From the NCBI GenBank assembly GCA_025965195.1, contig JAOPXK010000029.1, positions 1 through 64,000 on the forward strand: a stretch of 64,000 bases of DNA, read 5' to 3'. Under the pieces are notes generated by a model. That model was not told the origin of the DNA. It searched no databases and was given only the letters and a program-made list of their open reading frames with translations. Of the stretch, positions 38,546 to 64,000 are shown in pieces (the first letter of the stretch is position 1; each line of letters starts with the position of its first letter). Made by a program: the position numbers and the translations under genes. The stretch comes from Marmoricola sp. GTDB taxonomy: Bacteria > Actinomycetota > Actinomycetes > Propionibacteriales > Nocardioidaceae.

Positions 38546-38549
38546 CAGT

Positions 38550-41022: not shown

Positions 41023-41023
41023 G

Positions 41024-42681: not shown

Positions 42682-43854
42682 TCAGCGCGACCGTCCACCC
42701 GGCACGTCCCGATCTCCTCGCTCGAGAGAGTCCCGCGCAGCGGGCGCGGCGATCGCGACGATCCGGCGCGCACGTTCGGCGGCGTCGCAGCCACGAAGGT
42801 CCGCAACCCCGTGCTCGGTCACGACGAGGTCCACATCGGACCGGCCCGTCGAGACGGTGTCGACCCGACGAACGATGCTGGAGCGACCCGCATGCTCCGA
42901 GCGCAGCGCGATGACCGACAGTCCGTTGGGGTTGCAGGATGCGCCGGCGCAGAAGTCGGGGTGCCCACCGATGCCTGCCACGTGCCGTCCGCGGACGCTC
43001 TCGACGTTGACCGAGCCGTCGAGGTCCACTTGCAGCGCGGTGTTGATCGCGACGAACCTCGGCAGCGAGACCAGCCTGCCGAGGTCGTGCGTCTCCTCGA
43101 TCGGACGGATTCGGAGATCGCCCTCGGCCGCCATCGTGGTCAGCTCCGGGCTACCCCAGAGGTAGGTGGCCGTCGCATCGCCGATCAACAGCCCCCGGTC
43201 CGAGAGCCGGATCAGGGCATCGGTGGCGAGGCCGCTCCACACCCGGACCGGATGCGGGATCACCTCGATGATCGCGTCCGCGATCGCGCCCGGACCGTAC
43301 TGGATCGTGGCGCCGCTCGGGATCAGCGCGGCAACCAGCTCACCGATGATCCGGTCCTCGCGGGTGGCCTCAGCTCGTGCCGGCGGCCCGTCTGCGAACT
43401 CAACGGTCTCGGCCCCGATGACCTGTCCGGCGATCTCCGGGCCGCCGAGGTCAGGCGCGTCCGGGTCGACCAGCACGAGTACGCCGCAGCGAGCCAGCCG
43501 TGCGGCCACGTGTGCCCACCCGATGCTTCCCGCATAGGTGAACCCCGAGCCGCGGGGTCGCCCCCGCACCACCAGGTAGTCCGGGCGCAGGGCCGCACCG
43601 AGCAGTCTGGGCAGCGAGGCGTACCGCACCGGGAGGTAGCCGACGGCGCCACGCTCGATGTGCGGCCGGAGTGCGTAGCCACCCATGATGCAGCGCGCGG
43701 AGTGCTCGGCCAGGTCGTGCAGCCAAGGCACGTCCTGGAGCACCCAGCCGAGCAGCAGGTCGGCGTCGGACACACCCAGCCGCTCGAAGGCGACCGGTGG
43801 TGAGTAGAGCGGAGTGCCGGAACCGTCGGCGTACGCAACGAGCGGACGAGGCAC
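42682..43854 (-). CDS. Acetyl-CoA hydrolase/transferase family protein
   Basis: This 390-residue protein belongs to the class I CoA-transferase group (cat1/4-hydroxybutyrate CoA-transferase-like). Seen are GGPEIAGQVIGAE, IQYGPGAIADAI, DLGRLVSLPRFVAINTALQVDL and VTEHGVADLRG. It may move CoA from acetyl- or succinyl-CoA to an acid, or hydrolyse a product CoA ester. It is the last gene of the mutase operon; a GTG at 43854 is the likely start. Confidence 0.85.
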   Translation of the reverse strand: MPRPLVAYADGSGTPLYSPPVAFERLGVSDADLLLGWVLQDVPWLHDLAEHSARCIMGGYALRPHIERGAVGYLPVRYASLPRLLGAALRPDYLVVRGRPRGSGFTYAGSIGWAHVAARLARCGVLVLVDPDAPDLGGPEIAGQVIGAETVEFADGPPARAEATREDRIIGELVAALIPSGATIQYGPGAIADAIIEVIPHPVRVWSGLATDALIRLSDRGLLIGDATATYLWGSPELTTMAAEGDLRIRPIEETHDLGRLVSLPRFVAINTALQVDLDGSVNVESVRGRHVAGIGGHPDFCAGASCNPNGLSVIALRSEHAGRSSIVRRVDTVSTGRSDVDLVVTEHGVADLRGCDAAERARRIVAIAAPAARDSLERGDRDVPGGRSR

Positions 43855-43892
43855 GGGCTCGCCCTACCGGTCCAACGAGGTGAACGAACCCA

Positions 43893-45104
43893 CTAGGCGA
43901 CTCGCTCCCAGATCGCCGCCAGCCCCTGGCCACCACCGATACACATCGTCTCGAGACCGTAGCGCACCTCGCGGCGCTGCATCTCCCGCGCGAGGGTGGC
44001 GAGCATCCGGGTGCCAGTGGCACCGACGGGATGGCCGAGTGAGATGCCGGAGCCGTGGACGTTGGTGCGAAGCAGGTCCTCGTCGGTGAACTTCCACTCG
44101 CGCATCACCGCGAGCGCCTGCGAGGCAAACGCTTCGTTGAGCTCGATGAGATCCATGTCGGCCAGCGTCAGCCCGGCACGCTCGAGAGCATGCTCGGTGG
44201 CGGGCACCGGACCGATCCCCATCACGTTCGGCGCGACGCCGGCGACGCTCCAGGAGACCAGCCGCACCAGCGGGCGCAGCCCATGTTGCTCGGCGATCTC
44301 GGCGGTGGTCACCAGGCACATCGCGGCACCGTCGTTCTGTCCGCTCGCGTTGCCTGCGGTCACGGTGGCCTCCGGGTCGGAGGCCCCCAGCATTGGCTTG
44401 AGCCGGGCGAGCGCCTCGACAGTGGAGTCGGCGCGCGGGTGCTCGTCGGTGTCGTGCACCGACTCGCCCTTCGGTGTCTTCACCGAGGTCGGGATGATCT
44501 CCTCGGCGAAGACGCCGGACTGCTGCGCCGCAACCGCACGGCGGTGGGACTCGACGGACAGCTCGTCCTGCTCCTCACGTGGGATCGCGTAGGTACGACG
44601 CAGGTTCTCTGCGGTCTCGAGCATGCCGCCGGGCACCGGGAAGTTCTTGCCGCCGGCCGTGGTGCGGCCCCGGACGAGCCCGTCATGCATGCGTACGCCG
44701 CCGAGGCCGGCGCCCCACCGCATGTCCGTTGAGAAGAACGCAGCATTGCTCATGCTCTCGGTGCCTCCGGCAACGACGATGTCGTTCGCGCCGGTCTGCA
44801 CAGCCATGATCGCGTTGATCACCGACTGCAGGCCCGAGCCGCAGCGCCGATCGACGTGGCTGCCGCAGGCGGTCACCGCAAGCCCGGAATCGAGCGCCAC
44901 GACCCTGCCGATCGCGGGGGCGTCGCTGGTGCCGTAGCAGTGACCGAGGATGACATCCTCGATCAGCTCCGGGTCGATGCCGGTCCTGGCCAGCAACCCA
45001 CCCAGCGCGCTCACTCCGAGCTCGACCGCGGTCAGCTCCCTGAACATGCCGCCGTAGCGGCCGATCGGGGTCCGGACCGGTTCACAGATCACTACATCGC
45101 GCAC
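43893..45104 (-). CDS. Acetyl-CoA acetyltransferase (thiolase)
   Basis: This 403-residue thiolase cleaves a 3-ketoacyl-CoA with CoA. The nucleophile Cys88 is in DRRCGSGLQ, the His lies in GHPVGATG and the second Cys in CIGGGQG. GTG at 45104 has GAGAGGA about 7 bases upstream, which favours it over an upstream in-frame ATG. It lies 38 bases upstream of the CoA-transferase gene and would supply the final cleavage of the pathway. Confidence 0.95.
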   Translation of the reverse strand: MRDVVICEPVRTPIGRYGGMFRELTAVELGVSALGGLLARTGIDPELIEDVILGHCYGTSDAPAIGRVVALDSGLAVTACGSHVDRRCGSGLQSVINAIMAVQTGANDIVVAGGTESMSNAAFFSTDMRWGAGLGGVRMHDGLVRGRTTAGGKNFPVPGGMLETAENLRRTYAIPREEQDELSVESHRRAVAAQQSGVFAEEIIPTSVKTPKGESVHDTDEHPRADSTVEALARLKPMLGASDPEATVTAGNASGQNDGAAMCLVTTAEIAEQHGLRPLVRLVSWSVAGVAPNVMGIGPVPATEHALERAGLTLADMDLIELNEAFASQALAVMREWKFTDEDLLRTNVHGSGISLGHPVGATGTRMLATLAREMQRREVRYGLETMCIGGGQGLAAIWERVA

Positions 45105-45156
45105 GGCTGAGTCCTCTCCTCGGTTCGGATACGGCACTGGTCGCGGGCCGGACGCG

Positions 45157-46596
45157 TCATCGGCTGCTGGCTGCCTGGACCTGGTTCATGAAGTCGGCGG
45201 TCGACAACGTGTTCGCCGTCCAGGCGCCGAACGTCTCAAGCAGTGCCGCCGCGGTCGCGGCATCCTTCACCTCGGTGATGTTGGCGAGGAACTTCTTCTC
45301 CAGCAGGTCGGTCGGCAGCGGCTTCATCGGGTCGCCTCCGACCATGGTGGGCAGGAACTTCTCCAGCCGCTCACCGGCCTTCGTCTCGACGATGACGCGT
45401 GCAGCGAAGCAGTCCAGCCGTCCGGGCAGGTTGCCCTGGTCCTCGACCGGGAGCGGCTCGAACGTCGTCACCGCGAGCAACCGCTGGATCTCCGGGTTGG
45501 TGACCGCCTCTGCAGTGAAGTCGGCCACGGTCGGGGCGCCTCGCTTCATCGCTGTCACGGCAACGGCGTACTGGTTGCTGAACTTCGACTGCAGGTCGGT
45601 CACCGGGAAGGCGCGGTCGGTGTGCGGCATCCGGCGCGGGTGGTTGTAGATCTCGACCTTGGCGATCTCCTCTGAGCTCAGGTCGTGCTCGGCGGAGATC
45701 TCGCGCATTGCGTCGATCGCCGCGTGCGTGCTGCCACAGCAGGCATAGAGCTTGAAGACGATGCCGGGCATCACCATGTTCCAGGCACTGCCCAAGGTCG
45801 AGACCGCGGACCAGTCGATGTCATTGGTGCCGTTGTAGACATGCGGGTAGGAATGGCCGCCGGTGAAGACCTCCGGGTTGGCGACGACGCCGCCCTGGGC
45901 GAGCCGGGCAGCCTGTACGCCGTTGCTGGCGGCGAAGCCGACCTGTCCTGACTTCATGAAGGTGCCGAAGTTGCCCTTGATCCCGGAAGAGAAGGACGAG
46001 GCGATTCCGAGGGCGCTGACCGCCTGCTCGACACTGAGACCGAGCAGCCGCGCCGCTGCCGCGGTCGCACCGAAGATGCCGAGCGTCGCGGTCGGGTGCC
46101 AGCCGCGCTCGTAGTGGACATGGTGCAAGCCGCGGCCGATGACGCTGGCGACCTCGACGCCGATCACGTAGGCCGCGAGCACCTCGGAGCCGCTGGAGCC
46201 GAGCTCCTCGCCGAGGGAGAGCACCGCCGGGAGCACCGCGGCCGTCGGGTGTCCGCGCAGGGCATCGTGGCAGTCGTCGTAGTCGAGGATGTGGCCGGCG
46301 ACGCTGTTGGCGTACGCCGAGGCTTCCGGGGCGAGCTTCTGCTCCAGGCCGATGACCGTGGTCCGGCCGGGCGCATAGGTCTCGGCGACGTACTTGAGGA
46401 GCGGCTGCATCTCCCGCTCACGCGCACCGAGTACGGCGCACCCGAGCATGTCGAGGGCGCCACGGGCGGCGGCTGCCATGACCTCGGCCGGGATGTCCGG
46501 GCTCGCGGTCCCGACGACGAACTGGGCCATCGCTTCCAGTGGGTTGTCGTGGACCTCGGCCGACGCGCTGTCCGTCTTCTCCGTGGTGATCGTCAT
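45157..46596 (-). CDS. MmgE/PrpD family protein
   Basis: This 479-residue protein belongs to the family of 2-methylcitrate dehydratase and cis-aconitate decarboxylase. Seen are LDYDDCHDALRGHPTAAVLPA, GWHPTATLGIFGATAAAARLLG and LYACCGSTHAAIDAM. The reaction here is unknown; family members add or remove water or CO2 on branched di- or tricarboxylates. Its ATG overlaps the GTPase stop as ATGA, so it is part of the same operon. Confidence 0.92.
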   Translation of the reverse strand: MTITTEKTDSASAEVHDNPLEAMAQFVVGTASPDIPAEVMAAAARGALDMLGCAVLGAREREMQPLLKYVAETYAPGRTTVIGLEQKLAPEASAYANSVAGHILDYDDCHDALRGHPTAAVLPAVLSLGEELGSSGSEVLAAYVIGVEVASVIGRGLHHVHYERGWHPTATLGIFGATAAAARLLGLSVEQAVSALGIASSFSSGIKGNFGTFMKSGQVGFAASNGVQAARLAQGGVVANPEVFTGGHSYPHVYNGTNDIDWSAVSTLGSAWNMVMPGIVFKLYACCGSTHAAIDAMREISAEHDLSSEEIAKVEIYNHPRRMPHTDRAFPVTDLQSKFSNQYAVAVTAMKRGAPTVADFTAEAVTNPEIQRLLAVTTFEPLPVEDQGNLPGRLDCFAARVIVETKAGERLEKFLPTMVGGDPMKPLPTDLLEKKFLANITEVKDAATAAALLETFGAWTANTLSTADFMNQVQAASSR

Positions 46597-47582
46597 GCTT
46601 CTACGCCTCTTCCCTCAGTGATCCTGGACAGGACTTCCCTGACGACGTCGTCGGGGTCCTGCTTTCCGGCCGCGCAGGCCTCGATCGCGGGCATCCAGTC
46701 GTGCTGGGCCCGGGCGCTGTTCTCGACGTTCTCGACCAATGACTGCAGGACAAGCCGTTCCACGGTGCGAGTCCACGACTCCTGCCGCGTCATCGCGGTC
46801 TGTACGGGCCAGTCACGAAGTGCCTGCACCAGACCGTGCATCTCGGGGGTGTCCGGATTTCTGGCCTGCACGCTGTGCACGCGGCGCCCGGGCGGGATCC
46901 CGTGGCGTGCGCCCTGCCGGGCAACCACCCCTCGGAGCTGGGCGGCGAACTCCTTGGCACCGGGCCGATCGGACTTGTTGACGACGAACAGGTCAGCCCA
47001 CTCCATCAGGCCGGCCTTGAGCATCTGGATCACGTCGCCACTGTCCGGGTTGAGCACCAGGACCAGGCAGTCGACGATCTCGCGTACGCCGATGTCGCCC
47101 TGGCCTGCTCCCGCCGTCTCGACGATCACCGGGTCCAGGGCGATGTTCTCGAACGCGGAGACGATCGCGCCCAGATGGCGGCTCATCGCTCCTTGCGAGC
47201 CGCGCGCCGCCACGCTTCGCAGGTAGAGCCGACGTGCCCGATCCGAGTGACCGGGCTCCTGGTCGTGGTCGTAGAGCCGGAACCGGTCCCCGAGCAGCGC
47301 ACCGCCGGTGAGCTCGCTGCTCGGGTCGACCGCGACGGCCCCGACACGGGTGTGCCCCGGCCACGTGGAAGCGAGCGCAGACACGAGTGTGCTCTTCCCT
47401 GCGCCCGCTGCTCCTGTGATGCCGATCCGGGTGGACACGACATCGGGATCAGCGGCGCTGATCCTTCTTCCGAGCTCGGAGAGTGCACCCCAGTCGTCGT
47501 TCTCCACGGCCGAGATGAACTTCGCGAGCGCCGTGTCCGAGCCCGACTGCGCGGCGTCGAGCACGGAGTCCCAACGAGGCAC
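46593..47582 (-). CDS. MeaB-type GTPase, mutase chaperone
   Basis: MeaB loads adenosylcobalamin on and protects methylmalonyl-CoA mutase. The 329-residue protein has the P-loop GITGAAGAGKST, switch segment VAVDPSSELTGGALLGD, VETAGAGQGDIGV and base-recognition NKSD. GTG at 47582 shares one base with the CoA-transferase stop (TAGTG), and gives the normal length. Presence beside the B12 subunit supports a dedicated mutase system, as in the hcm and mcm loci of other bacteria. Confidence 0.93.
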   Translation of the reverse strand: MPRWDSVLDAAQSGSDTALAKFISAVENDDWGALSELGRRISAADPDVVSTRIGITGAAGAGKSTLVSALASTWPGHTRVGAVAVDPSSELTGGALLGDRFRLYDHDQEPGHSDRARRLYLRSVAARGSQGAMSRHLGAIVSAFENIALDPVIVETAGAGQGDIGVREIVDCLVLVLNPDSGDVIQMLKAGLMEWADLFVVNKSDRPGAKEFAAQLRGVVARQGARHGIPPGRRVHSVQARNPDTPEMHGLVQALRDWPVQTAMTRQESWTRTVERLVLQSLVENVENSARAQHDWMPAIEACAAGKQDPDDVVREVLSRITEGRGVEA

Positions 47583-48811
47583 TACACGACACCGGAGGTT
47601 CGGAGCTCCGCGAACTCGTCGGCATCGAGTCCGAGGCCCTGGAGGACGGCCTCGGTGTGCTCGCCGATGATCGGTGGAGAGGAGTAGGTCTGGTTGAACC
47701 CGGTCATCTTGACGGGGTTCCCGACGAACTTCAGCTTGTCGCCGAGCGTGTGCTCGATCTCGATGACCATGTCGCGGTGCAGGACCTGCGGGTCGGCGAG
47801 GGCCTCGTCGAGACTGTTGACACGGGCGTAGCCGAGGTCGGCCTCCTCCAGCCTCCGGCACCACTCCTCACTGGGCCGCTTGGCGAACTCGTCCTCGACG
47901 ATCTGGTGCAGCTCGACACCGTTCCCGGCCCGCTGACGGGAGTCCTCGAACTTCGGGAGGTGCTGGAGATCGGTGCGGTCCAGCGCGCGGCACAGCTTGC
48001 CCCACGGGATCTGGTCGGTCACTGCGATGATCACGTAGCGGTCGTCGGAGCACTTGAAGGCGCCGTACGTCGGGCTGTGGCCGCCCGATCCCTGCGGGCC
48101 GGGGATGGCGCCGTCGAGGAAGTAGTAGGCGGAGAAGTACGGGATCATCGCGATCTGCCCGTCGAGCAGGGACAGGTCGATCTCGGTGGCCTCGGTCGTG
48201 CCTGCGTTGCGGCCCTGGATCGCGGACAGGATCGAGATTGCCGCCCACATCCCGCCGGCCAGGTCGCCCAGCGGGATGCCCGCCCGGACCGGCGACCGTC
48301 CGGGCTCGCCCGTCATGCTCATCCCGCCCGACAGGGCCTGGACCACGAGGTCGACTCCGGGGCGCTTGGAATATGGGCCCGTCTGGCCGAACGACGTCAG
48401 CGACGCGAAGATCAGCGACGGGTTGACCTTGCGGAGGTCTTCGAACCCGACGCCGAGCCGGGGCATCACCCCGGCCCGGAAGTTGTTGAAGACCACGTCG
48501 GCTCCCGAGACCAGCTCGTTGAAGAGCTCCTTGCCGCGCTCGGTCTTGAGGTTGAGCGTCATGCTCCGCTTGTTGCGGTTCAGTGCCATGTAGTGCGCGT
48601 CTTGGTCCTTGTAGTAGTGACGCGTGAAGCCGCCCGGGTCGTAGCCACCGTTGGAGCCGGTTGCCTCGACCTTGATCACGCTGGCACCGAGGTCGGCCAG
48701 GATCAGCGTGCAGAACGGTCCGGCAAGGTGCCAGGACATGTCCACGATCTTCACCCCGTTCAAGGGGCCCTCGACCGGGCTGGACCAGATGCTGTTGTCT
48801 TTGTCCGTCAT
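47582..48811 (-). CDS. Type III CoA-transferase (CaiB/BaiF family)
   Basis: This 409-residue protein transfers CoA between carboxylic acids. Family marks are VKIVDMSWHLAGPFCTLILADLG near the N-terminus, VIKVEATGSNGG, LNLKTERGKELF and the catalytic Asp in IPLGDLAGGMW. ATG at 48811 overlaps the B12-subunit stop. It is the likely activator of the imported acid. Donor and acceptor cannot be predicted. Confidence 0.93.
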   Translation of the reverse strand: MTDKDNSIWSSPVEGPLNGVKIVDMSWHLAGPFCTLILADLGASVIKVEATGSNGGYDPGGFTRHYYKDQDAHYMALNRNKRSMTLNLKTERGKELFNELVSGADVVFNNFRAGVMPRLGVGFEDLRKVNPSLIFASLTSFGQTGPYSKRPGVDLVVQALSGGMSMTGEPGRSPVRAGIPLGDLAGGMWAAISILSAIQGRNAGTTEATEIDLSLLDGQIAMIPYFSAYYFLDGAIPGPQGSGGHSPTYGAFKCSDDRYVIIAVTDQIPWGKLCRALDRTDLQHLPKFEDSRQRAGNGVELHQIVEDEFAKRPSEEWCRRLEEADLGYARVNSLDEALADPQVLHRDMVIEIEHTLGDKLKFVGNPVKMTGFNQTYSSPPIIGEHTEAVLQGLGLDADEFAELRTSGVV

Positions 48812-49269
48812 GACTGACGAGCTCTCCTCTTGGCGGTTGCGGCCAGCAATTGAGTGGCGATGTCGTTGACTGATGAGCCCTGTCCGAAGATGTGCGAGAC
48901 GCCTGCGTCGAGCAGCTGTTGCTGGTCCTCGGGCGGGATCAGTCCGCCCACGATCACGAGGATGTCGGCGCCGGACTCGCGCACGCGGTCGAGGACGTCG
49001 TTCACAAAACCCTTGTGTCCGCCGGCGAGGCTGCTGATGCCGATGACATCCGCGTCCTCCTGGACGGCCGCCTGCACGATCTGTTCCGGCGTACGACGCA
49101 GGCCGAGGTAGACGACCTCGAAACCCGCCTCGCGAAGGCCGAGCACGACGACGTGAGCGCCCCGTTCGTGTGCGTCCAGACCGCCCTTGGCAAAGATCAT
49201 CCGGACCGGGCCACCCGGCAGAACCTCGCCGCCCGTTGACTCGTTCACGGTCGATGCGGTGTTCGACAT
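48808..49269 (-). CDS. Cobalamin-binding mutase small subunit
   Basis: This 153-residue protein is a B12-binding domain of the methylmalonyl-CoA mutase C-terminal type. The base-off motif is DAHERGA with axial His34, followed by GISSLAGGHKG and VGGLIPPEDQQQLLDAGV. The N-terminal 20 residues are disordered-looking. It would complete the large subunit encoded two genes upstream, with the crotonase between them. Confidence 0.94.
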   Translation of the reverse strand: MSNTASTVNESTGGEVLPGGPVRMIFAKGGLDAHERGAHVVVLGLREAGFEVVYLGLRRTPEQIVQAAVQEDADVIGISSLAGGHKGFVNDVLDRVRESGADILVIVGGLIPPEDQQQLLDAGVSHIFGQGSSVNDIATQLLAATAKRRARQS

Positions 49270-49271
49270 CG

Positions 49272-50081
49272 TCAGGAACCCTCCTTTCTTGTGGTGGAGA
49301 ATGCCTCCACGGCTGCCTTGCGCTCATCACTGTTGACCGACCGCTGCCGCAGCGCGTCGAGCGGCTCCCAGAACTCCGGGCCGCGATCGGCCGTCTTGCT
49401 GAAGGCGTCCACGATGTGCTTGTGGGCTTGCACAGCGGTAGCGCTCTCCGGCTTGTAGTCGGCCCAGTCCGCGACGGCACTCATCAGGTCGTCGCGGTCC
49501 GCGACGAGCTGGACGATTCCCGCCAGCAAGGCCTGGTCGGCCTCGAACTGGCGTCCCAGCGCGAACAGCTGCTTGGTGACGGTCGGGCCGAGCACGTCCA
49601 CGAACCGCTCGATGGCCCGCGGCCGGTAGACCGTCCCGATCCTGATGGCCGGGACCCCGAAGCGGCTCTGCGGCGTCGCGAAGCGGAAGTCGCAGGACAT
49701 CGCCAGATCCATGCCGGCGCCCAGGCAGTAGCCGTCGACGACCGCGATGGTCGGCTTCGGGCAGTCCCGCAGTACGCCGGTCGCGGTCTCGAGGGGAGCG
49801 CCCTTGTGGGCGTCGGCGCCGAGGGCACGCAGCACCTTGAGGTCGAAGCCCGACGAGAACGACCGGCCGCCCGCGCCGAGGACGGCCACCAGCCGGACGT
49901 CAGGCCTGGCGGCGACATCGGAGACCACCTCGGCCAAGGTCTTCAACAGGCTCGGCGTCAGCGCGTTGAGCGCTCCGGAACGGTTGAGGACGCATTCCAG
50001 GACACCGTCCTGCACGGACCAGAGCAGCTCCTCCTCGGAGCCGTCGTGGCCGTTGACGGGTCCATCCGATGGTGCGGTCAC
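49272..50081 (-). CDS. Enoyl-CoA hydratase/isomerase family protein
   Basis: This 269-residue crotonase-fold protein has oxyanion-hole regions RSFSSGFDLK and GYCLGAGMDLAMSCDF. The positions of the catalytic Glu pair read VPAIRIG and VYRPRA, so neither Glu is present; a hydratase reaction is unlikely. It lies between the two mutase subunits and overlaps the large-subunit stop as GTGA, so it probably acts directly on the mutase substrate or product. That last step is inference. Confidence 0.88.
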   Translation of the reverse strand: MTAPSDGPVNGHDGSEEELLWSVQDGVLECVLNRSGALNALTPSLLKTLAEVVSDVAARPDVRLVAVLGAGGRSFSSGFDLKVLRALGADAHKGAPLETATGVLRDCPKPTIAVVDGYCLGAGMDLAMSCDFRFATPQSRFGVPAIRIGTVYRPRAIERFVDVLGPTVTKQLFALGRQFEADQALLAGIVQLVADRDDLMSAVADWADYKPESATAVQAHKHIVDAFSKTADRGPEFWEPLDALRQRSVNSDERKAAVEAFSTTRKEGS

Positions 50082-51844: not shown

Positions 51845-51928
51845 TGCAAGCTCCAATCAGGTGCCGTTCCTCTGCGGTGGCGGAGGACCGGTCGGGGTGC
51901 GAACGGGTCGTTCAGGTCTGTCGTGGTG

Positions 51929-53946: not shown

Positions 53947-54055
53947 CCCAAACCCCTCCGGTCCCTCTCCGGTCCCTCTCCGGGGACGGTCGGTCGTGCA
54001 CCGTTGTGCCGAGAGGCATCGGCGCGCCCGAGCGACGCCGGCGCCCTCCTTGTCG

Positions 54056-55950: not shown

Positions 55951-55988
55951 CGTGTTGATCAACTCCTTGGCTCAGCCCTCGGGCTGCG

Positions 55989-56042
55989 TTGTCCGGACGA
56001 TGTCCGGCGAGGTCCAGCGATGTCCCGCGATGTCCCGCGAAC
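55989..56042. repeat. 10-base-period tandem repeat in divergent control region
   Basis: Consecutive 10-base units read TTGTCCGGAC, GATGTCCGGC, GAGGTCCAGC, GATGTCCCGC and GATGTCCCGC. Every unit shares GTCC at the same helical face. It lies 40 bases upstream of the SDR start. Confidence 0.8.
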
Positions 56043-56151: not shown

Positions 56152-56169
56152 CCTTGTCAAGAGACAAGG
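56152..56169. promoter_or_regulatory. Perfect palindrome, TetR-type operator candidate
   Basis: CCTTGTC and GACAAGG are separated by AAGA, giving a perfect 7-base inverted repeat in the divergent promoter region. The size and symmetry fit a TetR-dimer operator, and a TetR gene lies at 58646. A related half-site (ACCTTGTGC) is 20 bases upstream. Confidence 0.5.
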
Positions 56170-56349
56170 CACATGATTCTTGAGTAGATGTTCACGACCC
56201 GCGTCAAATCGCTCGAAGGTCTGGTTCCCGCGTAAATACGGCGATATCGCGATGCGGGCGGTGTTAGCCGAGTCACTTTCGAGATTCGCCGGAAGAATCC
56301 TTGGCAACCATCCTTGCTACTCAACAAGTTTTGTGGCTACTCTCTGCCC

Positions 56350-57489
56350 GTGAGATTCGAACCAACCGAGTTGACGCCCCAGGAGCTTGAGCTCCAGCGT
56401 GGGGCGCGGGCATTTCTGCGCGATGCGCTGCCCCAAGGCAGCTACGAGCCCGGGCTCGGGATGGACTCGGGCAGGGACGCCGCGTTCTCCCAACAGCTCG
56501 CCAAGTACGGCTGGATCGGCGTCGCCATCCCGACTGAGTACGGCGGGCGCAACGGCACCGCCGTCGACCGGTTCGTGATCACCGAGGAGCTGCTCCGGTC
56601 GGGAGCACCCGTCACCCACCACTGGGTCGCCGATCGTCAGACCGCGCCGCTGTTGCTCAAGTTCGGCACCGAGGAGCAGAAGCGCCGCTTCCTGCCCGCC
56701 ATCGCCAGCGCCGAGATCTCCTTCTGTATCGGCATGAGCGAGCACGAGGCCGGCAGCGACCTGACTGCCGTCCGAACCAGCGCCACGCGCACCGACGGCG
56801 GCTGGCTGCTCAACGGCACCAAGGTCTGGACCAGCAACGCGATGGACAGCGACTGGTTCGTGATCCTCTGCCGGACCGGCACCGACCCCGACGACCGCCA
56901 CGCCGGCCTCAGCCAGTTCCTCGTCGACCTGCGCACTGAGGGCGTGACACGTTCGCCCATCCCGTTCCTCGATCCGAGCACGCATTTCGCCGAGGTCCTG
57001 CTCGACAACGTGCTGGTGCCCGACGACTGTGTTCTCGGCGTCATCGGGCAGGGCTGGGTCCAGAACACCAACGAGCTCGCCTACGAGCGGGGCGGTCCCG
57101 ACCGCTGGTTGTCGACGTACGGCCTGGTCGAGGCGTTCATCCGCGAATATCCGGAGGAGGCCAAGGCCGAACAGCCGGCACAGGTCATCGGCGAGATCGT
57201 GGCGAAGTACTGGGCGCTGCGGCGGCTCTCGCTCTCGGTCGCCCGAAGCATCGACCGGAAGGAGGCCCCGGCTGCCGAGTCCGCGCTGGTCAAGGAGATG
57301 GGGACCCGCTTCGAGCAGGACGTGATCATCGCGCTCCAGTGCCTGCTGGACGTGGAACCCCGATCCACCTCGGCGTCAGTCTTCGAACGGCTGCTGAGCC
57401 GGGCCATCCTGAGCGGCCCGTCCTTCACCATCCGCGGTGGCACCATCGAGATACTTCGGTCCGTTGCGATGAAGGGTCTGGTCCTATGA
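56350..57489 (+). CDS. Acyl-CoA dehydrogenase, large partner of pair 1
   Basis: This 379-residue flavoprotein has CIGMSEHEAGSDLTAVR, WLLNGTKVWTSNAM and a C-terminus FTIRGGTIEILRSVAMK. The Glu of the YEGT-type motif is replaced by Gly (RGGT), as in heteromeric actinobacterial FadE enzymes. It is coupled to the next gene by ATGA. GTG at 56350 (MRFEPTELTPQE) is favoured over an upstream ATG whose product would carry an unrelated leader. Confidence 0.9.
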   Translation: MRFEPTELTPQELELQRGARAFLRDALPQGSYEPGLGMDSGRDAAFSQQLAKYGWIGVAIPTEYGGRNGTAVDRFVITEELLRSGAPVTHHWVADRQTAPLLLKFGTEEQKRRFLPAIASAEISFCIGMSEHEAGSDLTAVRTSATRTDGGWLLNGTKVWTSNAMDSDWFVILCRTGTDPDDRHAGLSQFLVDLRTEGVTRSPIPFLDPSTHFAEVLLDNVLVPDDCVLGVIGQGWVQNTNELAYERGGPDRWLSTYGLVEAFIREYPEEAKAEQPAQVIGEIVAKYWALRRLSLSVARSIDRKEAPAAESALVKEMGTRFEQDVIIALQCLLDVEPRSTSASVFERLLSRAILSGPSFTIRGGTIEILRSVAMKGLVL

Positions 57490-58580
57490 CGCCGACCCAT
57501 GCGGAACTGAACGAGCTCGAGCAGACGGCGAACACCCTCTTCGTCGACCTGTGCACTCCGGCGTCGGCGGCAGCAGCCGAGACCGACGGCTGGCACCCGC
57601 GCCTGTGGGCGGCGATCGACCAGGCCGGCTTCACCGATGTGTCGGTTCCCGAGGAGCGCGGTGGCGCCGGTGGTACGCCGGCCGAAGCACTGGCGATCCT
57701 GCGAGCGGCAGGAAGATCGGCGGCCGCCGTACCGCTTGCGGAGACCGGGCTGATGGCCGGCCAGCTGCTCACGGCAGCAGGTCTGGATCTTCCCCTCGGC
57801 GTTCGGATCGTGGTTCCTCCGGCCGGCGCCGACGAGCTGGTGCTCGAAGGCGACCAGCTGAGCGGAACGGCAAGAGGGCTCGCCTGGGGCCGGCACGCGA
57901 GCTGGATCGTGGTGCTTCTCCCTCGAGACGGCGAGAACCTGGTGGCAGTGCTGCCCGGGCCTGCGCTCGAGATGACCACTGGCGTCTCTGTCGTGGCTGA
58001 CGTGAACCTTGCCGGTGAGCCACGCGACGACCTGACCTTCGACCACGTCCCGGTCGCCCGGAAGTCCCTCGCGCCTGTCGGAACGGACCCCGGCGCCCTG
58101 CAGCTCCTCGGCGCCGCCGGACGCGCCGCGATGATGGCCGGGGCGCTCAGCTCGATGGCCGATCTCACGCTGCGCTACACCCGCCAGCGGAAGCAGTTCG
58201 GGAAGCCGGTCTCGTCGTTCCAGTCCGTGCAACAGCATCTCGTCACGTTGCACCAGCAGGCGGCGCTCGTGTCCGCAGCGGTCGACGGAATGCTGACCGC
58301 GATCTCCAACGGGCCGGCTCCCTTCGAGATCGCCGCGGCGAAACTGCTCGCGAACCAGGCGGCGGTCGCCGCCACCAGGGCAGCTCATCAGGCACATGGC
58401 GCGATCGGGATGACGCAGGAGTACCAGCTCCATCAGTTCAGCCGTCGGCTCTGGTCGTGGCGCGCGGAGTACGGCAACGACCGCTACTGGTCGAGCCGGC
58501 TCGGGAGCGGCGTCGCCAGTGCAGGTCCGGATGCGCTCTACCCGACGATCACGGCCGGATCAGCGGCGATGACCCCATGA
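57486..58580 (+). CDS. Acyl-CoA dehydrogenase, small partner of pair 1
   Basis: This 364-residue protein has an N-terminal helical domain (DVSVPEERGGAGGTPAEAL), a shortened middle domain and a C-terminal domain with YTRQRKQFGKPVSSFQSVQ and HQAHGAIGMTQEYQLHQFS. It matches the second subunit of heteromeric acyl-CoA dehydrogenases such as the FadE28-FadE29 kind. ATGA overlap with the first subunit supports equal expression. Confidence 0.9.
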   Translation: MTPTHAELNELEQTANTLFVDLCTPASAAAAETDGWHPRLWAAIDQAGFTDVSVPEERGGAGGTPAEALAILRAAGRSAAAVPLAETGLMAGQLLTAAGLDLPLGVRIVVPPAGADELVLEGDQLSGTARGLAWGRHASWIVVLLPRDGENLVAVLPGPALEMTTGVSVVADVNLAGEPRDDLTFDHVPVARKSLAPVGTDPGALQLLGAAGRAAMMAGALSSMADLTLRYTRQRKQFGKPVSSFQSVQQHLVTLHQQAALVSAAVDGMLTAISNGPAPFEIAAAKLLANQAAVAATRAAHQAHGAIGMTQEYQLHQFSRRLWSWRAEYGNDRYWSSRLGSGVASAGPDALYPTITAGSAAMTP

Positions 58581-58645
58581 CGACCAGGGAACCTGTCGGC
58601 ACGCTTCACCCTGTCCACCTCGTGAAGGTGGGCAAGGATGAGGCC

Positions 58646-59443
58646 ATGACCAAACCAGACAAGGCCACCCGCCGAGCCACCGTCGCGCAGATGAAGATGG
58701 TTGACGCTGCCATGGACTTGATCTCCGAGGGCGGCCTTGCCCTGGCGACGCTGGCCCGCGTCGGCGAGCGCGCCGGCTACAGCCGCGGCCTTGCCGACTA
58801 TCACTTCGGTTCGAAGTCAGAACTTGTCGAGCAGGTCGTCCACGTCATCGCGGAGACCTGGACCGGGTCCCTGGTCGAGCGAGGGTTGCCGGCGATGCGC
58901 GGCATTGAGGCCCTGGCAGCTTTGGTCGACACCTACCTCGAACGGCTGAGCGAGGACCCGCGCTACAACCAGGTCCTCTACATTCTCGCGGGCGAGTCCG
59001 TCACGGTCACTCCCGAGATCAGGGCCAAGGTCGCCCGCCATGACGAGTCCTTCCGTCGCCTGATCCGGCGCTGGGTGATCGAGGCCCAGGTCGACGGAGC
59101 GCTGCGGCCGGACGTCGATCCCGTCAAGGCCTCCGTTCTCATCGAAGGCCTCCTCCGAGGGGTGTGCATGCAATGGTTGCTGGCGCCGACGGCCTTCGCG
59201 CCCACCGACATGACGTCGTACATCCTTGACGCGATCGTCGGTGGACTCGGCAGCCCGTCCGGTGTCGTCCAGGCGCTGCGTCGTCGACCGGCACCGGTCC
59301 AGGACCCTGAGGATTCCGCCCGCGACGACTCGGCCATTCGCTCCGACGGCACCAAGGCTCTCGCGAAGGCCGCGCCTCGCCCGAAGACGGCGAGGACCAA
59401 CGGCCAGCCGCCGCCCCGACCTCCCGACAAGCACCAACCGTGA
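58646..59443 (+). CDS. TetR family transcriptional regulator
   Basis: This 265-residue regulator has the helix-turn-helix LATLARVGERAGYSRGLAD with YHFGSKSELV after it, and a C-terminal helical domain for ligand binding. About 40 residues at the end are basic, Pro- and Ala-rich. ATG at 58646 has AAGGA 7 bases upstream. An ATG at 58577 would overlap the preceding stop as ATGA and add 23 residues. It is probably the repressor of the flanking acyl-CoA genes. Confidence 0.9.
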   Translation: MTKPDKATRRATVAQMKMVDAAMDLISEGGLALATLARVGERAGYSRGLADYHFGSKSELVEQVVHVIAETWTGSLVERGLPAMRGIEALAALVDTYLERLSEDPRYNQVLYILAGESVTVTPEIRAKVARHDESFRRLIRRWVIEAQVDGALRPDVDPVKASVLIEGLLRGVCMQWLLAPTAFAPTDMTSYILDAIVGGLGSPSGVVQALRRRPAPVQDPEDSARDDSAIRSDGTKALAKAAPRPKTARTNGQPPPRPPDKHQP

Positions 59444-59519
59444 CGGCACGCCGGGTCCGCCTTCATCCAGCCATCACGGGAACCAGCCACGAGCGGTCCG
59501 TACGCCCTGGCTGCGGCTC

Positions 59520-60782
59520 ATGAGTCGTACCGACCAGGGGGCCTCGCTCCGCTCCTTGATGATCCCCGTGTACGCACCGGGGATTCTCCTGGGCACCGCG
59601 CAGGGCGCGATCATCCCCTTCACTCCGCTGACGGCGACCAGCCTCGGAGCCACGGTTGCCATCGCAGGTCTGATCACGGCAGCACGTGGGCTCGGCACGA
59701 TGGCATTCGACATCCCTGCCGGACGGCTGATGGCTCGTGTCGGCGACCGCCGGGCGATGCTGCTCGGCACGGTCACGATGTTCATCTCTCTCGTCGGCAG
59801 CGCGCTGAGCCCGAACGCACTCGTCTTCGGGCTGTTCACCGTGCTCTACGGCTGCGCCTGGGCGATCTGGATGCTCAGCCGGATGACCTACATCAGTGCG
59901 GTCGTCGCGCCGCTGATGCGGGGCCGCGCCTTGTCCGCGCTCGGAGCGACCTCGAGGGTCGGCGCTCTGGCCGGTCCGCTCGCCGGAGCCCTGATCGCAC
60001 ACGCCATGGGTCTGAGCGATGTCTTCTACCTGGCAGCCGCCCTCACCGTGCTCGGCGGAGCCTGTTTCATGTTTGGCCCGGAGCACGACCTGCGGAGGGG
60101 TGACCAGCACGCGCGGGTGAGCATCAAGTCGGTCGTCTCCGCCTCGCCCAAGACCTTCGCCGTCATCGGCAGCGGGTCCCTGATGGTCAGCGCCATGCGA
60201 GGCAGCCGGCAGATCGTGATCCCCTTGTGGGGAGAGCATGTCGGTCTCAGTCCATCGACCATCGGCGTGATCTTCGGTATCTCCGCAGCGGCCGACCTGC
60301 TCGTGTCGTACCCGGCCGGGGTGCTCTCGGACAGGTGGGACCGCAGGGCAGCAGCCGTGCCGTGCCTGGCCTTGCTCGGGCTCGGGCAGATCGGCCTTCT
60401 GACGACGTCCACCCTGATCGGCGTGACCATTGCCTCCCTGGTCATGGGCATCGGCAACGGGTTCGGCAGCGGCATCGTGATGACGCTGGGCACCGACCTC
60501 GCACCCGAACGCGGCAGGGCCCAGTTCCTCGCGGTGTGGCGACTCGTCAGCGACACGGGCCTGACGGCGGGACCCTTCTTCCTCTCGGCAGTCGCCGCCG
60601 TCCTCAGCTTCACCACCGGGGCTGTCGCCCTGGGCGCGATGGCGGTCGGAGCCGCCGTGATGTTCCAGCGCAGCGAGCTGCTCAAGGGCCCGTCGACCGA
60701 TGCGGTGCCACAGGCGCTCGACCCCGCAACCGCGCCACCCCCGGACACTCCGGTGTCCGAGGAGCCAAGCCTCGAGCACTGA
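59520..60782 (+). CDS. MFS transporter
   Basis: This 420-residue carrier has twelve predicted helices, motif A forms GRLMARVGDRRAMLL and GVLSDRWDRRAAA, and a Pro-rich C-terminal tail (DPATAPPPDTPVSEEP). It lies between the TetR gene and the second dehydrogenase set, so it may export an intermediate or import a substrate. The ATG at 59520 (MSRTDQGASLR) is favoured because upstream in-frame sequence overlaps the TetR gene. Confidence 0.88.
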   Translation: MSRTDQGASLRSLMIPVYAPGILLGTAQGAIIPFTPLTATSLGATVAIAGLITAARGLGTMAFDIPAGRLMARVGDRRAMLLGTVTMFISLVGSALSPNALVFGLFTVLYGCAWAIWMLSRMTYISAVVAPLMRGRALSALGATSRVGALAGPLAGALIAHAMGLSDVFYLAAALTVLGGACFMFGPEHDLRRGDQHARVSIKSVVSASPKTFAVIGSGSLMVSAMRGSRQIVIPLWGEHVGLSPSTIGVIFGISAAADLLVSYPAGVLSDRWDRRAAAVPCLALLGLGQIGLLTTSTLIGVTIASLVMGIGNGFGSGIVMTLGTDLAPERGRAQFLAVWRLVSDTGLTAGPFFLSAVAAVLSFTTGAVALGAMAVGAAVMFQRSELLKGPSTDAVPQALDPATAPPPDTPVSEEPSLEH

Positions 60783-60836
60783 CCACCTCCGGAGCGAGAT
60801 CTCCGGGTTCCACGAAAGAGAGAGGAGTACGCCCCA

Positions 60837-61601
60837 ATGGGTGATGTTTCGTACGAGTTGACCGACACCGTGGCTCTGATCACCGTGTCTTCCCCAGAGG
60901 TCCGCAACGGGCTGACGCCTCCGATGGCTGAGTCGCTGATTGCCATCTGCGATGAGATCAACGCCAACCAGACCGTCACCGCCGCTGTCATCCGAGGCGC
61001 TGACGGCACGTTCTGCTCAGGCGCGGACACGCGCGAGTGGACCGTGATGCTCGACCCCGCCTCCGAGATCGCCTACCAACAGACGACGACCGTGTACGGC
61101 GCGTTCGTCCGCTTCGGCAACCTGCAGGTACCCACCATCGCCGCCGTACGCGGAGCTGCCGTCGGAGCCGGCCTCAACCTCGCGCTGGCCGCAGACGTCC
61201 GGGTCTGCGCCGACAACGCCCGGCTGATCGCAGGTTTCGGCCGCGCCGGAATCCACCCGGGTGGCGGGTTCTTCACGCTCATCGGCCGCACCGGTGCCCG
61301 GGAGTCCGCTGCCGCCCTCGGCCTGTTCAACCAGGAGATGTCCGGCCAGCAGGCAGCGGCCTGTGGCGTGGCCTGGGACTCGGTGCCCGATGGCGAGGTC
61401 GAGGAGAGGGCCCTTGCCCTGGCGCGCGGTGCGACCAGCGACCCCGTTCTCGGCCGAATGACGTTGAAGTCCTTCCGCGAGGAGCTCGGCCCCCCGGCAG
61501 TCAGCTGGCCGGCGGCCCTGGAGATGGAGCGCGGCGCCCAGATGTGGTCACAGCGGAAGCGGGCCGCACTCGCAGCACAGGCCGAGGAGATGTCGTCGTG
61601 A
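60837..61601 (+). CDS. Enoyl-CoA hydratase/isomerase family protein
   Basis: This 254-residue crotonase-fold protein has oxyanion-hole regions FCSGADTRE and RGAAVGAGLNLALAADV. The first Glu position reads GFGRAGI and the second HPGGGF, so the Glu pair of hydratases is absent. GAGGAG lies about 9 bases before the ATG. It is coupled to the next dehydrogenase gene (GTGA). Confidence 0.9.
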   Translation: MGDVSYELTDTVALITVSSPEVRNGLTPPMAESLIAICDEINANQTVTAAVIRGADGTFCSGADTREWTVMLDPASEIAYQQTTTVYGAFVRFGNLQVPTIAAVRGAAVGAGLNLALAADVRVCADNARLIAGFGRAGIHPGGGFFTLIGRTGARESAAALGLFNQEMSGQQAAACGVAWDSVPDGEVEERALALARGATSDPVLGRMTLKSFREELGPPAVSWPAALEMERGAQMWSQRKRAALAAQAEEMSS

Positions 61602-62761
61602 CCACGACAGCGACCGCGCCACTCGTGGCTGCGGACCTGGTCACCGAACTGCGCAAGGAGGTTCGCGCCTTCATCCAGAGCTGGTGGTCCAGGAAGGGCT
61701 TCGCGCCCGGGCTGGGAATGAACGCGACGCACTCACCGGAGTTCTCGCTCGAGCTCGCGCAGCGAGGGTGGGTCGGGATGGCGATCCCCACCCAGTACGG
61801 AGGCCGCGGGTCGACCACCGTCGAGCGCTTCGTGGTGGCCGAGGAACTCCTGGCGGCCGGCGCCCCCGTCGGTGCGCACTGGGTTGCCGAGCGTCAGACG
61901 GCACCTACGCTCCTGGTCTTCGGCACCGAGGCCCAGCGTCAGCTGTTCCTCCCCCGGATTGCAGAAGGCAGGTGCTTCTTCTCGATCGGGCTCTCCGAAC
62001 CCGACTCGGGATCGGACCTGGCCTCGGTGCGCACCACCGCCCGCCGCGTCGATGGCGGCTGGCTGGTGAACGGGACGAAGATCTGGACCAGCGGAGCCCA
62101 TCGCAACCACTTCTTCGTGGTGCTCTGCCGCACGCGGCCCCTGGCCGACGACCGGCACGAGGGCCTCTCCCAGCTCATCGTCGATCTCAAGGCACCGGGT
62201 CTGCGGATCAGCCCGATCAAGCTGCTCAACGGATCGCATCACTTCAACGAGGTCGCCTTCACCGACGTCTTCGTCCCCGACGACATGCTCCTCGGCGAGG
62301 AAGGCAGTGGCTGGACCCAGATCACGTCGGAGCTGGCTCACGAGCGCTCCGGGCCGGATCGCTTCATGAGCACCTATCCGTTGCTGGAACAGCTGCTCCG
62401 CGACCGCGCGACGGACGTCGAACCGGCCTATCTGAACGAGACGGTCGGTCGGCTGACGGCGAGGTACTGGATGATCCGGCAGTTGTCCCTGGCCGTGGCC
62501 CATGCGATCGACCGGGGTGGCTCGACCTCTGTCCAGGCCGCGATCGTGAAGGACCTGGGCACGACCTTCGAGCAGGATGTCGTGGCGTCGATCCAGGCGC
62601 TCCTCGAGCTCGATCCCGACCCGACGGCGGACTCGCTGTTCGAGCGACAGCTCGCGGAGGCGACCCTGATCTCCCCGTCGTACACCATCCGCGGAGGCAC
62701 GACCGAAGTCCTGCGTTCGGTCGCCGCAAAGGCGCTGAGGAGTACCCACCATGTCCGATAA
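61598..62761 (+). CDS. Acyl-CoA dehydrogenase, large partner of pair 2
   Basis: This 387-residue protein is a close paralogue of the dehydrogenase at 56350: SIGLSEPDSGSDLASVR, WLVNGTKIWTSGA and YTIRGGTTEVLRSVAAK. The shared RGGT motif shows the same loss of the usual catalytic Glu. GTG at 61598 overlaps the crotonase stop. The next gene overlaps it by 11 bases. Confidence 0.92.
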   Translation: MTTTATAPLVAADLVTELRKEVRAFIQSWWSRKGFAPGLGMNATHSPEFSLELAQRGWVGMAIPTQYGGRGSTTVERFVVAEELLAAGAPVGAHWVAERQTAPTLLVFGTEAQRQLFLPRIAEGRCFFSIGLSEPDSGSDLASVRTTARRVDGGWLVNGTKIWTSGAHRNHFFVVLCRTRPLADDRHEGLSQLIVDLKAPGLRISPIKLLNGSHHFNEVAFTDVFVPDDMLLGEEGSGWTQITSELAHERSGPDRFMSTYPLLEQLLRDRATDVEPAYLNETVGRLTARYWMIRQLSLAVAHAIDRGGSTSVQAAIVKDLGTTFEQDVVASIQALLELDPDPTADSLFERQLAEATLISPSYTIRGGTTEVLRSVAAKALRSTHHVR

Positions 62762-63872
62762 CGAGCTCGAACCCATCCTCGCTGGAATGCTCTCCGACCA
62801 TTGCGGTCCGGACCAGCGAAGGCGCGACGAGAACGGCGAGTGGTGCGGCGAGCTCTGGGCTCTCCTCGACAGCGCCGGTGTCACCTCGCTGTCCAACCCC
62901 GAGGAGCTCGGCGGGCAGGGCGGCGAGCTGGAGGACGCCTGCCTGGTGCTCCGCCTTGCTGGCCGCAGCGCAGTTCCGCTCCCGCTTGCGGAGCACGGAT
63001 TCCTTGCCGGGTGGATGCTCTCGCGGAGCGGCGTTCCGATCCCCGACGGCGTACTGACTGTTGGCGTCGACCCGGCTCCCGACTTGCGGCTGCGCTCGAC
63101 CGCGGGAGGCTGGAGGGTGAAGGGGACGGTACGCCGCGTGCCATGGGCGCGGCACGCGGACTGGCTCGTCGCGTTCGCGGCCACGGCCGATGGTCCTCGG
63201 GTTGTCGCGATCCCGCTGTCCGAGGAGATGATCACCCACGGCACCAACCTCGCCGGCGAGGCGCGCGATGCAGTCGAGTTCGACGACGTCCCCGTGAACG
63301 ATGCTCTTGTTGCTCGCCCAGGAGAGGGCGTCGACGCCGAGTCGTTCCGCCTCCGGGGCGCGCTGACGCGGGGCCTGCTGATGTCCGGTGCACTCGAGCA
63401 CGTGGTCAAGCTGACGGTCGAGTACGCCTGGGTCCGCCACCAGTTCGGGCGGCCGATCGCGAACTTCCAGGCGGTGCAACAGCATCTCGTCCGGCTCAAC
63501 GCGGAAAGCACCGCTGCCGGCCTCGCCGTACAGTCCGCAGTCGCACGTCATGCCTCGGGAGATCCGGCACGGTTCGAGCTGGCGGCGGCCAAGCAGCTGA
63601 CGAGCCACGCAGCGACCCTTGCCACCGCGTTGGCCCACCAGGTCCATGGGGCGATCGGCATGACCGAGGAGTATGAGCTGCAGCAGTACACCCGGCGGCT
63701 GATGTCCTGGCGCCAGGAGTTCGGGTCGTCCCGGTTCTGGGCAGCCCGTATCGGTGAGCAGGTGGTGGCTGGCGGCGCCGACCTGCTGTGGCCGCGGATC
63801 TCCGACACGATGAACGGCCGCGACGGACTCGAGTCCCTCAGAGCCGGCCAGCAGCCCGCCAGCGTGGGATGA
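62751..63872 (+). CDS. Acyl-CoA dehydrogenase, small partner of pair 2
   Basis: This 373-residue protein is a paralogue of the one at 57486: LSNPEELGGQGGELEDA, YAWVRHQFGRPIANFQAVQ and HQVHGAIGMTEEYELQQYT. It should form a heteromer with the product of 61598. The start overlaps the preceding gene by 11 bases, and the stop overlaps the thioesterase gene as ATGA. Confidence 0.92.
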   Translation: MSDNELEPILAGMLSDHCGPDQRRRDENGEWCGELWALLDSAGVTSLSNPEELGGQGGELEDACLVLRLAGRSAVPLPLAEHGFLAGWMLSRSGVPIPDGVLTVGVDPAPDLRLRSTAGGWRVKGTVRRVPWARHADWLVAFAATADGPRVVAIPLSEEMITHGTNLAGEARDAVEFDDVPVNDALVARPGEGVDAESFRLRGALTRGLLMSGALEHVVKLTVEYAWVRHQFGRPIANFQAVQQHLVRLNAESTAAGLAVQSAVARHASGDPARFELAAAKQLTSHAATLATALAHQVHGAIGMTEEYELQQYTRRLMSWRQEFGSSRFWAARIGEQVVAGGADLLWPRISDTMNGRDGLESLRAGQQPASVG

Positions 63873-64000
63873 CGCCGCTGCCCACCGTCGACGAGGTGAG
63901 GATGCTCCCGGCCACGTTGACGACCGCCGTCGAGGAGGAGTTCATCGACGAGAACGGGCACATGAACATCCGGCACTACGTCCGGCTCGAGGCCAAGGGT
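63869..64000 (+). CDS. Hot-dog thioesterase family protein, 5' part
   Basis: Only the first 44 codons are visible before the window ends. The sequence starts MTPLPTVDEVRMLPATL and has EFIDENGHMNIRHYV, the N-terminal motif of 4-hydroxybenzoyl-CoA-type thioesterases with a catalytic Asp/Glu-His-Asn context. It is coupled to the dehydrogenase gene (ATGA) and would release a free acid from CoA. Confidence 0.7.
   Translation, partial: MTPLPTVDEVRMLPATLTTAVEEEFIDENGHMNIRHYVRLEAKG

Follow-up and report, generated by a model that had tools for sequence, protein, structure and literature searches.

The stretch of DNA analysed here, called the window, comprises positions 1 to 64,000 (forward strand) of contig JAOPXK010000029.1 from Marmoricola sp. 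(assembly GCA_025965195.1, a 3.97 Mb draft in 200 contigs, 98.12% complete). From position 42682 onwards it carries a gene island built around a B12-dependent acyl-CoA mutase. Gene families were called by Pfam and NCBIfam profile scans of the window proteins. Twelve minus-strand genes, from 55962 down to 42682, are tightly packed as one operon, with intergenic gaps of -26 to +89 nt and overlaps at 6 of the 11 junctions. An earlier sequence-only reading had proposed such an operon, and every family that it named was confirmed by the scans; what it described as two crotonase/SDR proteins is one crotonase (49272-50081) and one short-chain dehydrogenase/reductase (SDR, 55186-55962). In order of transcription, the genes are:

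55186..55962, minus strand: SDR, FabG-like, proposed 3-hydroxyacyl-CoA dehydrogenase (Pfam adh_short_C2, 6.4e-50; NCBIfam FabG-like model, 209.4 bits, below the cut-off of 222)
54056..55096, minus strand: TRAP periplasmic binding protein DctP (Pfam DctP, 1e-49)
53410..54081, minus strand: TRAP DctQ, start codon uncertain (Pfam DctQ, 5.1e-13)
51929..53413, minus strand: TRAP DctM (Pfam DctM, 4.4e-86)
50078..51856, minus strand: B12 acyl-CoA mutase large subunit MutL (Pfam MM_CoA_mutase, 7.9e-123)
49272..50081, minus strand: crotonase ECH1, proposed substituted-malonyl-CoA decarboxylase (Pfam ECH_1, 1.4e-32)
48808..49269, minus strand: B12-binding small subunit with the DxHxxG motif (DAHERG) (TIGR00640, 138.6 bits, cut-off 57.45)
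47582..48811, minus strand: type III (CaiB) CoA-transferase (Pfam CoA_transf_3, 1.9e-108, scanned as a longer open frame; best NCBIfam model succinate--glutarate CoA-transferase, 249 bits against a cut-off of 750)
46593..47582, minus strand: MeaB-type GTPase, its GTG start overlapping the CaiB stop (Pfam MeaB, 3e-47)
45157..46596, minus strand: MmgE/PrpD, proposed 2-substituted-succinate epimerase (phmmer, Foldseek, His116/Tyr162)
43893..45137, minus strand: thiolase (PRK06205, 665 bits, above the cut-off of 551)
42682..43854, minus strand: acetyl-CoA hydrolase/transferase-like CoA-transferase, proposed to recycle CoA (Pfam AcetylCoA_hyd_C, 2.9e-34)

Relatives of the mutase were sought in named genomes, where at least 553 loci were confirmed and the best 79 distinct ones retained. 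Among these 79, the closest mutases are those of Conexibacter sp. DBS9H8 (65% identity) and Actinomadura alba (62%), followed at 40-52% by those of Dehalococcoidia, Desulfobacterales, Smithella, Desulfosarcina alkanivorans and others. The distribution is patchy: the mutase was found in 2 of 294 genomes of the same family (its own and G026, 46% identity) at E up to 1e-110, and in 18 of 396 genomes of the phylum, its own included, at E up to 1e-115. In the plasmid collection, 421 records match it, all below 60% identity and at 35-40% among the matches listed. Other mutases matched in its own genome are at most 37% identical.

A 96-row mutase tree was rooted on methylmalonyl-CoA mutase (MCM), leaving out 34 gathered rows and an E. 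coli locus duplicate (near-copies, fragments and surplus outgroups); the trees were built without IaaG of the indoleacetate route and without ethylmalonyl-CoA mutase reference sequences. The window, Conexibacter and Actinomadura mutases form one group (SH-aLRT 100) within a 70-row clade (100), which contains all 16 rows whose locus also encodes a glycyl-radical enzyme. In a 42-row bootstrap tree the trio was recovered at 100/100, as was a 29-row clade with 9 of 9 glycyl-radical-enzyme-linked rows. The trio and L079 (L numbers designate loci) are joined there at 94/98 to the part of the clade with glycyl-radical-enzyme loci and do not lie within that part.

The MCM residues Tyr89, Arg207 and His244, which we take to bind the substrate carboxylate (numbering and roles are assumed), are kept in the window MutL as Y104, R228 and H265, so a dicarboxylate CoA ester is expected as substrate. 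Most clade rows displayed have TPQND for TIQND of MCM and insertions near conserved active-site motifs; compared with MCM, the window mutase has insertions of five residues and of one residue next to such motifs. The string AEHxRYAG in place of GYHxxEAG of MCM was seen, among the rows displayed, only in the window, Conexibacter and Actinomadura. For the mutase, the AlphaFold model (mean pLDDT 64.8) was too poor for pocket comparison.

Glycyl-radical enzymes were sought at the loci by BLAST with six such proteins as queries. They were found in 16 of the 79 named loci, at 0.7 to about 8 kb from the mutase. With one query and a looser limit, they were found in 17 of the 73 loci that belong to the clade; of these, 14 matched at 54-74% (L108 at 44%), L110 matched at 31% and L089 with an end fragment only. 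Three of the enzymes (those of the Desulfosudis locus L133, of L092 and of L095) were compared with solved structures and scored 1276, 1061 and 1445 bits with MasD (9o8u), (1-methylalkyl)succinate synthase, against 481-531 bits with benzylsuccinate synthase BssA. Mutases encoded near MasD are thus found in the same clade as the window mutase. A search of its own genome with PF02901 (glycyl-radical synthase) gave 0 matches at 98.12% completeness, and for this reason the operon was not assigned to the mas/ass pathway. With no such enzyme detected there, the host probably scavenges the diacid instead of making it. Among the 36 genomes behind 40 loci, eight, of unstated completeness, also gave no PF02901 match, including those of Conexibacter, Actinomadura, Syntrophorhabdus PtaU1.Bin058, Chloroflexota JZ-1 and L116. 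The small Chloroflexota bin CSMAG_1153 (G711) carries at least four clade mutases on separate contigs (L069, L070, L081 and L085) and no PF02901 match.

Gene neighbourhoods were counted in the 73 clade loci (L138-L143 of the 79 were dropped as outside the clade). Loci around other mutases served as controls; there were 27 of these, 20 from the same order or closer relatives and 7 from the phylum, and four were shorter than 15 kb. Neither count includes L057 or the phylum loci L045-L056, which include duplicates of named loci; the L057 mutase branches just below the clade, and its locus does have PrpD. Many of the clade loci are short, which makes the clade counts minimum values; in addition, the loci are not independent of one another and some queries were drawn from counted loci. 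MmgE/PrpD was present in 46/73 clade loci (45 of the 46 within 4 kb of the mutase) and in 0/27 controls, CaiB in 18/73 and 0/27, the B12 subunit in 43/73 and 14/27, and MeaB in 33/73 and 8/27. CaiB was also present in 4 of the six dropped loci. Crotonases were counted in 30/73 clade loci and relatives of AMP ligases in 22/73; DctM and DctP each occurred in 3/73. The controls contained neither TRAP genes (0/27) nor glycyl-radical enzymes (0/27).

Two loci whose genomes gave no PF02901 match share parts of the layout of the window. In Syntrophorhabdus locus L088 the genes for DctP, DctM, mutase and PrpD follow one another, and Chloroflexota locus L071 has CoA-transferase, crotonase, CaiB, B12 subunit, MutL, acyl-CoA dehydrogenase (ACAD), PrpD, thiolase and SDRs. 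The exact gene order of the window was not seen in the loci examined; the segment MutL-crotonase-B12 subunit-CaiB recurs in Conexibacter and Actinomadura. In Conexibacter sp. DBS9H8, the mutase/CaiB/PrpD/hydantoinase cluster is flanked by two identical inverted copies of 1655 bp with the same transposase (L065, 2399-4053 and 18704-20358), the left one overlapping the very beginning of the HyuA open frame. This cluster looks like a composite transposon, which fits horizontal spread. In some Actinomycetota and Chloroflexota loci of the clade, a gene next to the mutase subunits, or between them, encodes a radical SAM protein with a PDZ domain (L052, 11161-13392; L055, 2119-3939; L071, 5095-7236); those of L052 and L055 have a weak, sub-cut-off DUF512 match.

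The best solved relatives of the window MmgE/PrpD protein in phmmer are iminodisuccinate (IDS) epimerase (206 bits), Bacillus IRG1 (184), cis-aconitate decarboxylase (121) and 2-methylcitrate dehydratase (29.5). Its AlphaFold model (mean pLDDT 80.2) was compared with solved structures using Foldseek: the epimerase 2hp3 ranked first (TM 0.80/0.86), followed by decarboxylases (0.74-0.76 by query), with dehydratases lower. Curated 2-methylcitrate dehydratase models scored 39.5, 31.7 and 30.3 bits (cut-offs 575, 458 and 950), and this assignment was rejected. The catalytic His99 and Tyr145 of IDS-epimerase are kept as His116 and Tyr162. Tyr145 is the second base of the two-base IDS-epimerase; it is missing in the mammalian decarboxylase and present in Bacillus IRG1 (PMC7347537, PMC12290011). 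This Tyr was found in 40 of the 43 clade-linked PrpDs passing the length filter (the exceptions being Phe in L091 and L093 and Arg in L065) and in 16/16 from glycyl-radical-enzyme loci, as compared with 4 of 11 PrpDs picked from relatives' genomes regardless of neighbourhood; the catalytic His was present in 43/43 and 11/11. The window protein is best read as a predicted epimerase and not as a 2-methylcitrate dehydratase. Work from 2025 established MmgE/PrpD proteins of the itaconate cluster as (S)-(R)-methylsuccinate isomerases, active on free acids but not on CoA esters (PMC12290011), a role suggested earlier by growth data (PMC9875883). Genome G026, of the same family as the window, has 27 MmgE/PrpD matches, against 0 to 4 in each of the other 57 genomes searched; it is perhaps a dicarboxylic-acid specialist.

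ECH1 lies between the mutase subunits in the window, Conexibacter, Actinomadura and L116. Its Tyr152 aligns with Tyr140 of E. coli ScpB, and Asp125 and Ala145 occupy the two hydratase Glu positions; the catalytic role of ScpB Tyr140 and these Glu positions are assumed. ECH1 scored 100.3 bits with PRK11423, under the cut-off of 257, and so it is not classed as a ScpB-type member and is only proposed to act alike. DctP matches 95 distinct solved sequences, the best being 4p47; as the top structures are generically named and the sialic acid and isethionate binders come lower, no TRAP ligand was read from them.

The two divergent dehydrogenase pairs of the sequence-only reading were recovered as the first two and last two of the following genes:

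56314..57489, plus strand: acyl-CoA dehydrogenase subunit ACAD1, RGG replacing YEG (profile scan, motif reading)
57486..58580, plus strand: acyl-CoA dehydrogenase subunit ACAD2 (profile scan)
58679..59443, plus strand: TetR regulator, start approximate (profile scan)
59430..60782, plus strand: MFS transporter, start approximate (profile scan)
60837..61601, plus strand: second crotonase ECH2, possible hydratase (profile scan)
61598..62761, plus strand: acyl-CoA dehydrogenase subunit ACAD3, RGG motif, start approximate (frame read from the sequence)
62751..63872, plus strand: acyl-CoA dehydrogenase subunit ACAD4 (profile scan)

ACAD1 and ACAD3, each followed by its partner subunit, are 52% identical and both have RGG for YEG; ACAD2 and ACAD4 are 43% identical. 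The Actinomadura mutase locus holds an ACAD pair, 50% and 31% identical, the 50% member being the ACAD3 homologue. On the other side of the operon, outside the coordinates of the sequence-only reading, further acyl-CoA genes adjoin the island at 36131-42666. They encode two acyl-CoA dehydrogenases and two SDRs, together with a crotonase, a kinase-like protein of the APH family and a GntR regulator. The divergent promoter region holds CGATGTCCNG in five imperfect 10-bp copies, arranged almost in tandem at 55987-56037, immediately before the SDR gene; these repeats are perhaps an operator. An Rfam scan of 34000-64000 gave no match.

From the gene set and its packing, the clade of the mutase, the type of the PrpD and the conserved residues, all read directly from the DNA, we infer each of the following reactions, their order, the substrate class and the use of oxygen by the host. 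We consider it reasonably likely that the operon enables the cell to take up a 2-substituted succinate, R-CH(COOH)-CH2-COOH, and to catabolise it aerobically. The diacid would be imported by the TRAP transporter and epimerised at C2 as the free acid by MmgE/PrpD, which would make both stereoisomers usable. CaiB would then move CoA onto it, probably from succinyl-CoA. MutL and the B12 subunit, guarded by MeaB, would convert the substituted succinyl-CoA into (R-CH2)malonyl-CoA, which ECH1 may decarboxylate to R-CH2-CH2-CO-CoA. Beta-oxidation would be performed by the ACAD pairs, a hydratase (ECH2 or another) and the SDR, followed by thiolysis by the thiolase. The second CoA-transferase may regenerate succinyl-CoA. 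The chain proposed earlier (uptake, CoA transfer, carbon-skeleton rearrangement, oxidation, thiolysis) agrees with this evidence, to which the epimerase and decarboxylase readings are additions; the branched organic acid then given as substrate is kept as a class and narrowed to 2-substituted succinates.

Several observations weigh against this pathway. The three-member actinobacterial mutase group sits on a long branch, beside and not inside the glycyl-radical-linked part of the clade, and its active site is changed, with E264 and Y268 (window numbering) at the positions of MCM Tyr243 and Glu247. No PrpD match was obtained in the locus sequence examined for Actinomadura and L116, and the PrpD of Conexibacter, one of the two closest relatives of the window, has Arg at the second-base Tyr. 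The His/Tyr pair is no proof of epimerase activity, since it also occurs in Bacillus IRG1, the function of which is called undetermined (PMC12290011). In the PrpD tree, which long branches make unsure, the window protein clusters with that of L176, from a relative, and the mutase-linked PrpDs do not form a single lineage: the label changes 5 times, against about 10 on average after shuffling. For alkane degraders, it has been argued that epimerisation should follow CoA-thioester formation (PMC4561516), and the characterised isomerase takes free acids only. ECH1 is 25% identical to ScpB and hydratases score higher (92.6 against 67.7 bits); for these reasons the decarboxylation step is put forward only as a proposal. 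The NCBIfam matches of the second CoA-transferase are far under their cut-offs, the best reaching 84.6 of 674.8 bits.

By analogy with the indoleacetate (Iaa) route, the substrate might be an aryl- or aminoaryl-succinate, which we regard as rather unlikely. That route comprises a phenylsuccinyl-CoA transferase, a two-subunit benzylmalonyl-CoA mutase and a decarboxylating dehydrogenase, and thus runs through the same sequence of CoA-transferase, mutase (IaaGH) and substituted malonyl-CoA (PMC8360864). The hydantoinase A/B genes that precede the mutase in Conexibacter would fit the opening of a lactam or imide ring to a substituted succinate. However, the Conexibacter HyuA and HyuB queries match nothing in the window, and the sole HyuA match in its own genome lies on another contig, at 39%. 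IaaF carries GGG in place of YEG (PMC8360864), whereas no GGG string was found in the six window ACADs examined and ACAD1 and ACAD3 have RGG at the motif; by this motif test the decarboxylating dehydrogenase of the indoleacetate route is absent.

Methylsuccinate, which would be epimerised, activated and converted via ethylmalonyl-CoA and butyryl-CoA to two acetyl-CoA, is an improbable substrate even though exactly this gene set would complete the chemistry and methylsuccinate isomerases are established among MmgE/PrpD proteins (PMC12290011). The known isomerases are 96.2% from Pseudomonadota and are reported always beside methylsuccinyl-CoA dehydrogenase genes (PMC12290011). The five- and one-residue insertions beside the active-site motifs of the mutase and the link of its clade to alkylsuccinate synthases also speak against this substrate, and two ACAD pairs would suggest a bulkier chain. 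A routine propionate/methylmalonyl or 2-methylcitrate module with an unrelated TRAP system next to it, as the names mutase, MeaB and PrpD might suggest, is very improbable and was rejected: the genes are packed in one operon, the mutase falls outside the MCM group in both trees and reaches at most 37% with own-genome mutases, and the PrpD (29.5 bits with 2-methylcitrate dehydratase, 206 with IDS-epimerase) likewise falls outside the propionate families.

The degradation of a 2-substituted succinate, as preferred here, has a bearing on anaerobic alkane degradation. An epimerase acting between activation and rearrangement, proposed by Jarling et al. in 2012 (cited in PMC3653055), has been inferred for alkane degraders (PMC4561516, PMC3653055); a 2025 paper treats such an epimerase, which it calls unknown, as one of two possibilities, with an unselective synthase as the alternative (PMC12358834). 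Alpha-methylacyl-CoA racemase was suggested for this role and reported absent from bins of Atribacteria and from draft genomes of n-alkane-degrading Smithella, which the authors took as a sign that it may not be needed (PMC6776118). In the open-licence PMC literature, we found no paper joining MmgE/PrpD with the epimerase of alkane degradation and, among the papers listed, none titled on an aerobic or actinobacterial alkylsuccinate pathway; the titles listed for alkylsuccinyl- and alkylmalonyl-CoA mostly concern polyketides. MmgE/PrpD is a concrete candidate for this epimerase. We give about even chances to the broader proposal that the clade-linked MmgE/PrpDs are 2-substituted-succinate epimerases which, in alkane degraders, make the second (1-methylalkyl)succinate diastereomer and, in the window, serve an aerobic TRAP-scavenging actinobacterium. 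If so, the carbon-skeleton rearrangement of anaerobic hydrocarbon metabolism would also occur in actinobacteria without the hydrocarbon-activating enzyme, which probably breathe oxygen; environmental alkyl- or arylsuccinates would have an aerobic sink; and MmgE/PrpD would replace alpha-methylacyl-CoA racemase as a readily testable epimerase candidate.

Four known systems resemble the operon. The itaconate cluster shares an MmgE/PrpD (there isomerising a 2-substituted succinate), a CoA-transferase and an acyl-CoA dehydrogenase; it differs in dehydrogenating to mesaconyl-CoA and using a lyase, with no B12 mutase in the cluster as described (PMC12290011, PMC9875883). In the E. coli Sbm operon scpA-argK-scpB-scpC, a mutase, a MeaB-type GTPase, a crotonase decarboxylase and a CoA-transferase adjoin as in the window, but the mutase is a single-chain methylmalonyl-CoA mutase and the stretch shown has no uptake system, PrpD, thiolase or SDR. 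The indoleacetate system IaaL/IaaGH/IaaF shares CoA transfer to a substituted succinate, a two-subunit B12 mutase and a substituted malonyl-CoA (PMC8360864); the window differs in having TRAP and PrpD and no detected GGG dehydrogenase or hydantoinase. The mas/ass downstream module of anaerobic alkane degraders shares the mutase clade, the B12 subunit, the MeaB-type GTPase and MmgE/PrpD. In Desulfoglaeba ass cluster 1, the mutase L/S subunits, an 'LAO/AO transport' gene and MmgE/PrpD are listed as ancillary genes, with no function given (PMC7180275); 'LAO/AO transport' is the name of the MeaB model TIGR00750. Unlike this module, the window has TRAP uptake (DctM in 3/73 clade loci) and CaiB, where 22/73 clade loci have an AMP ligase relative; its mutase subunits are separated by a crotonase, its ACADs come in pairs, and no glycyl-radical synthase was detected in its genome. 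The sequence-only reading knew of no characterised pathway with this exact set: none of the loci examined has the exact order, but the core has precedents in the MasD-neighbouring mutases of the clade and the ancillary genes of the published ass cluster. The description that fits the operon best is that of a scavenging operon for a 2-substituted succinate, a novel form of the succinate rearrangement known from anaerobic degraders of alkanes and indoleacetate.

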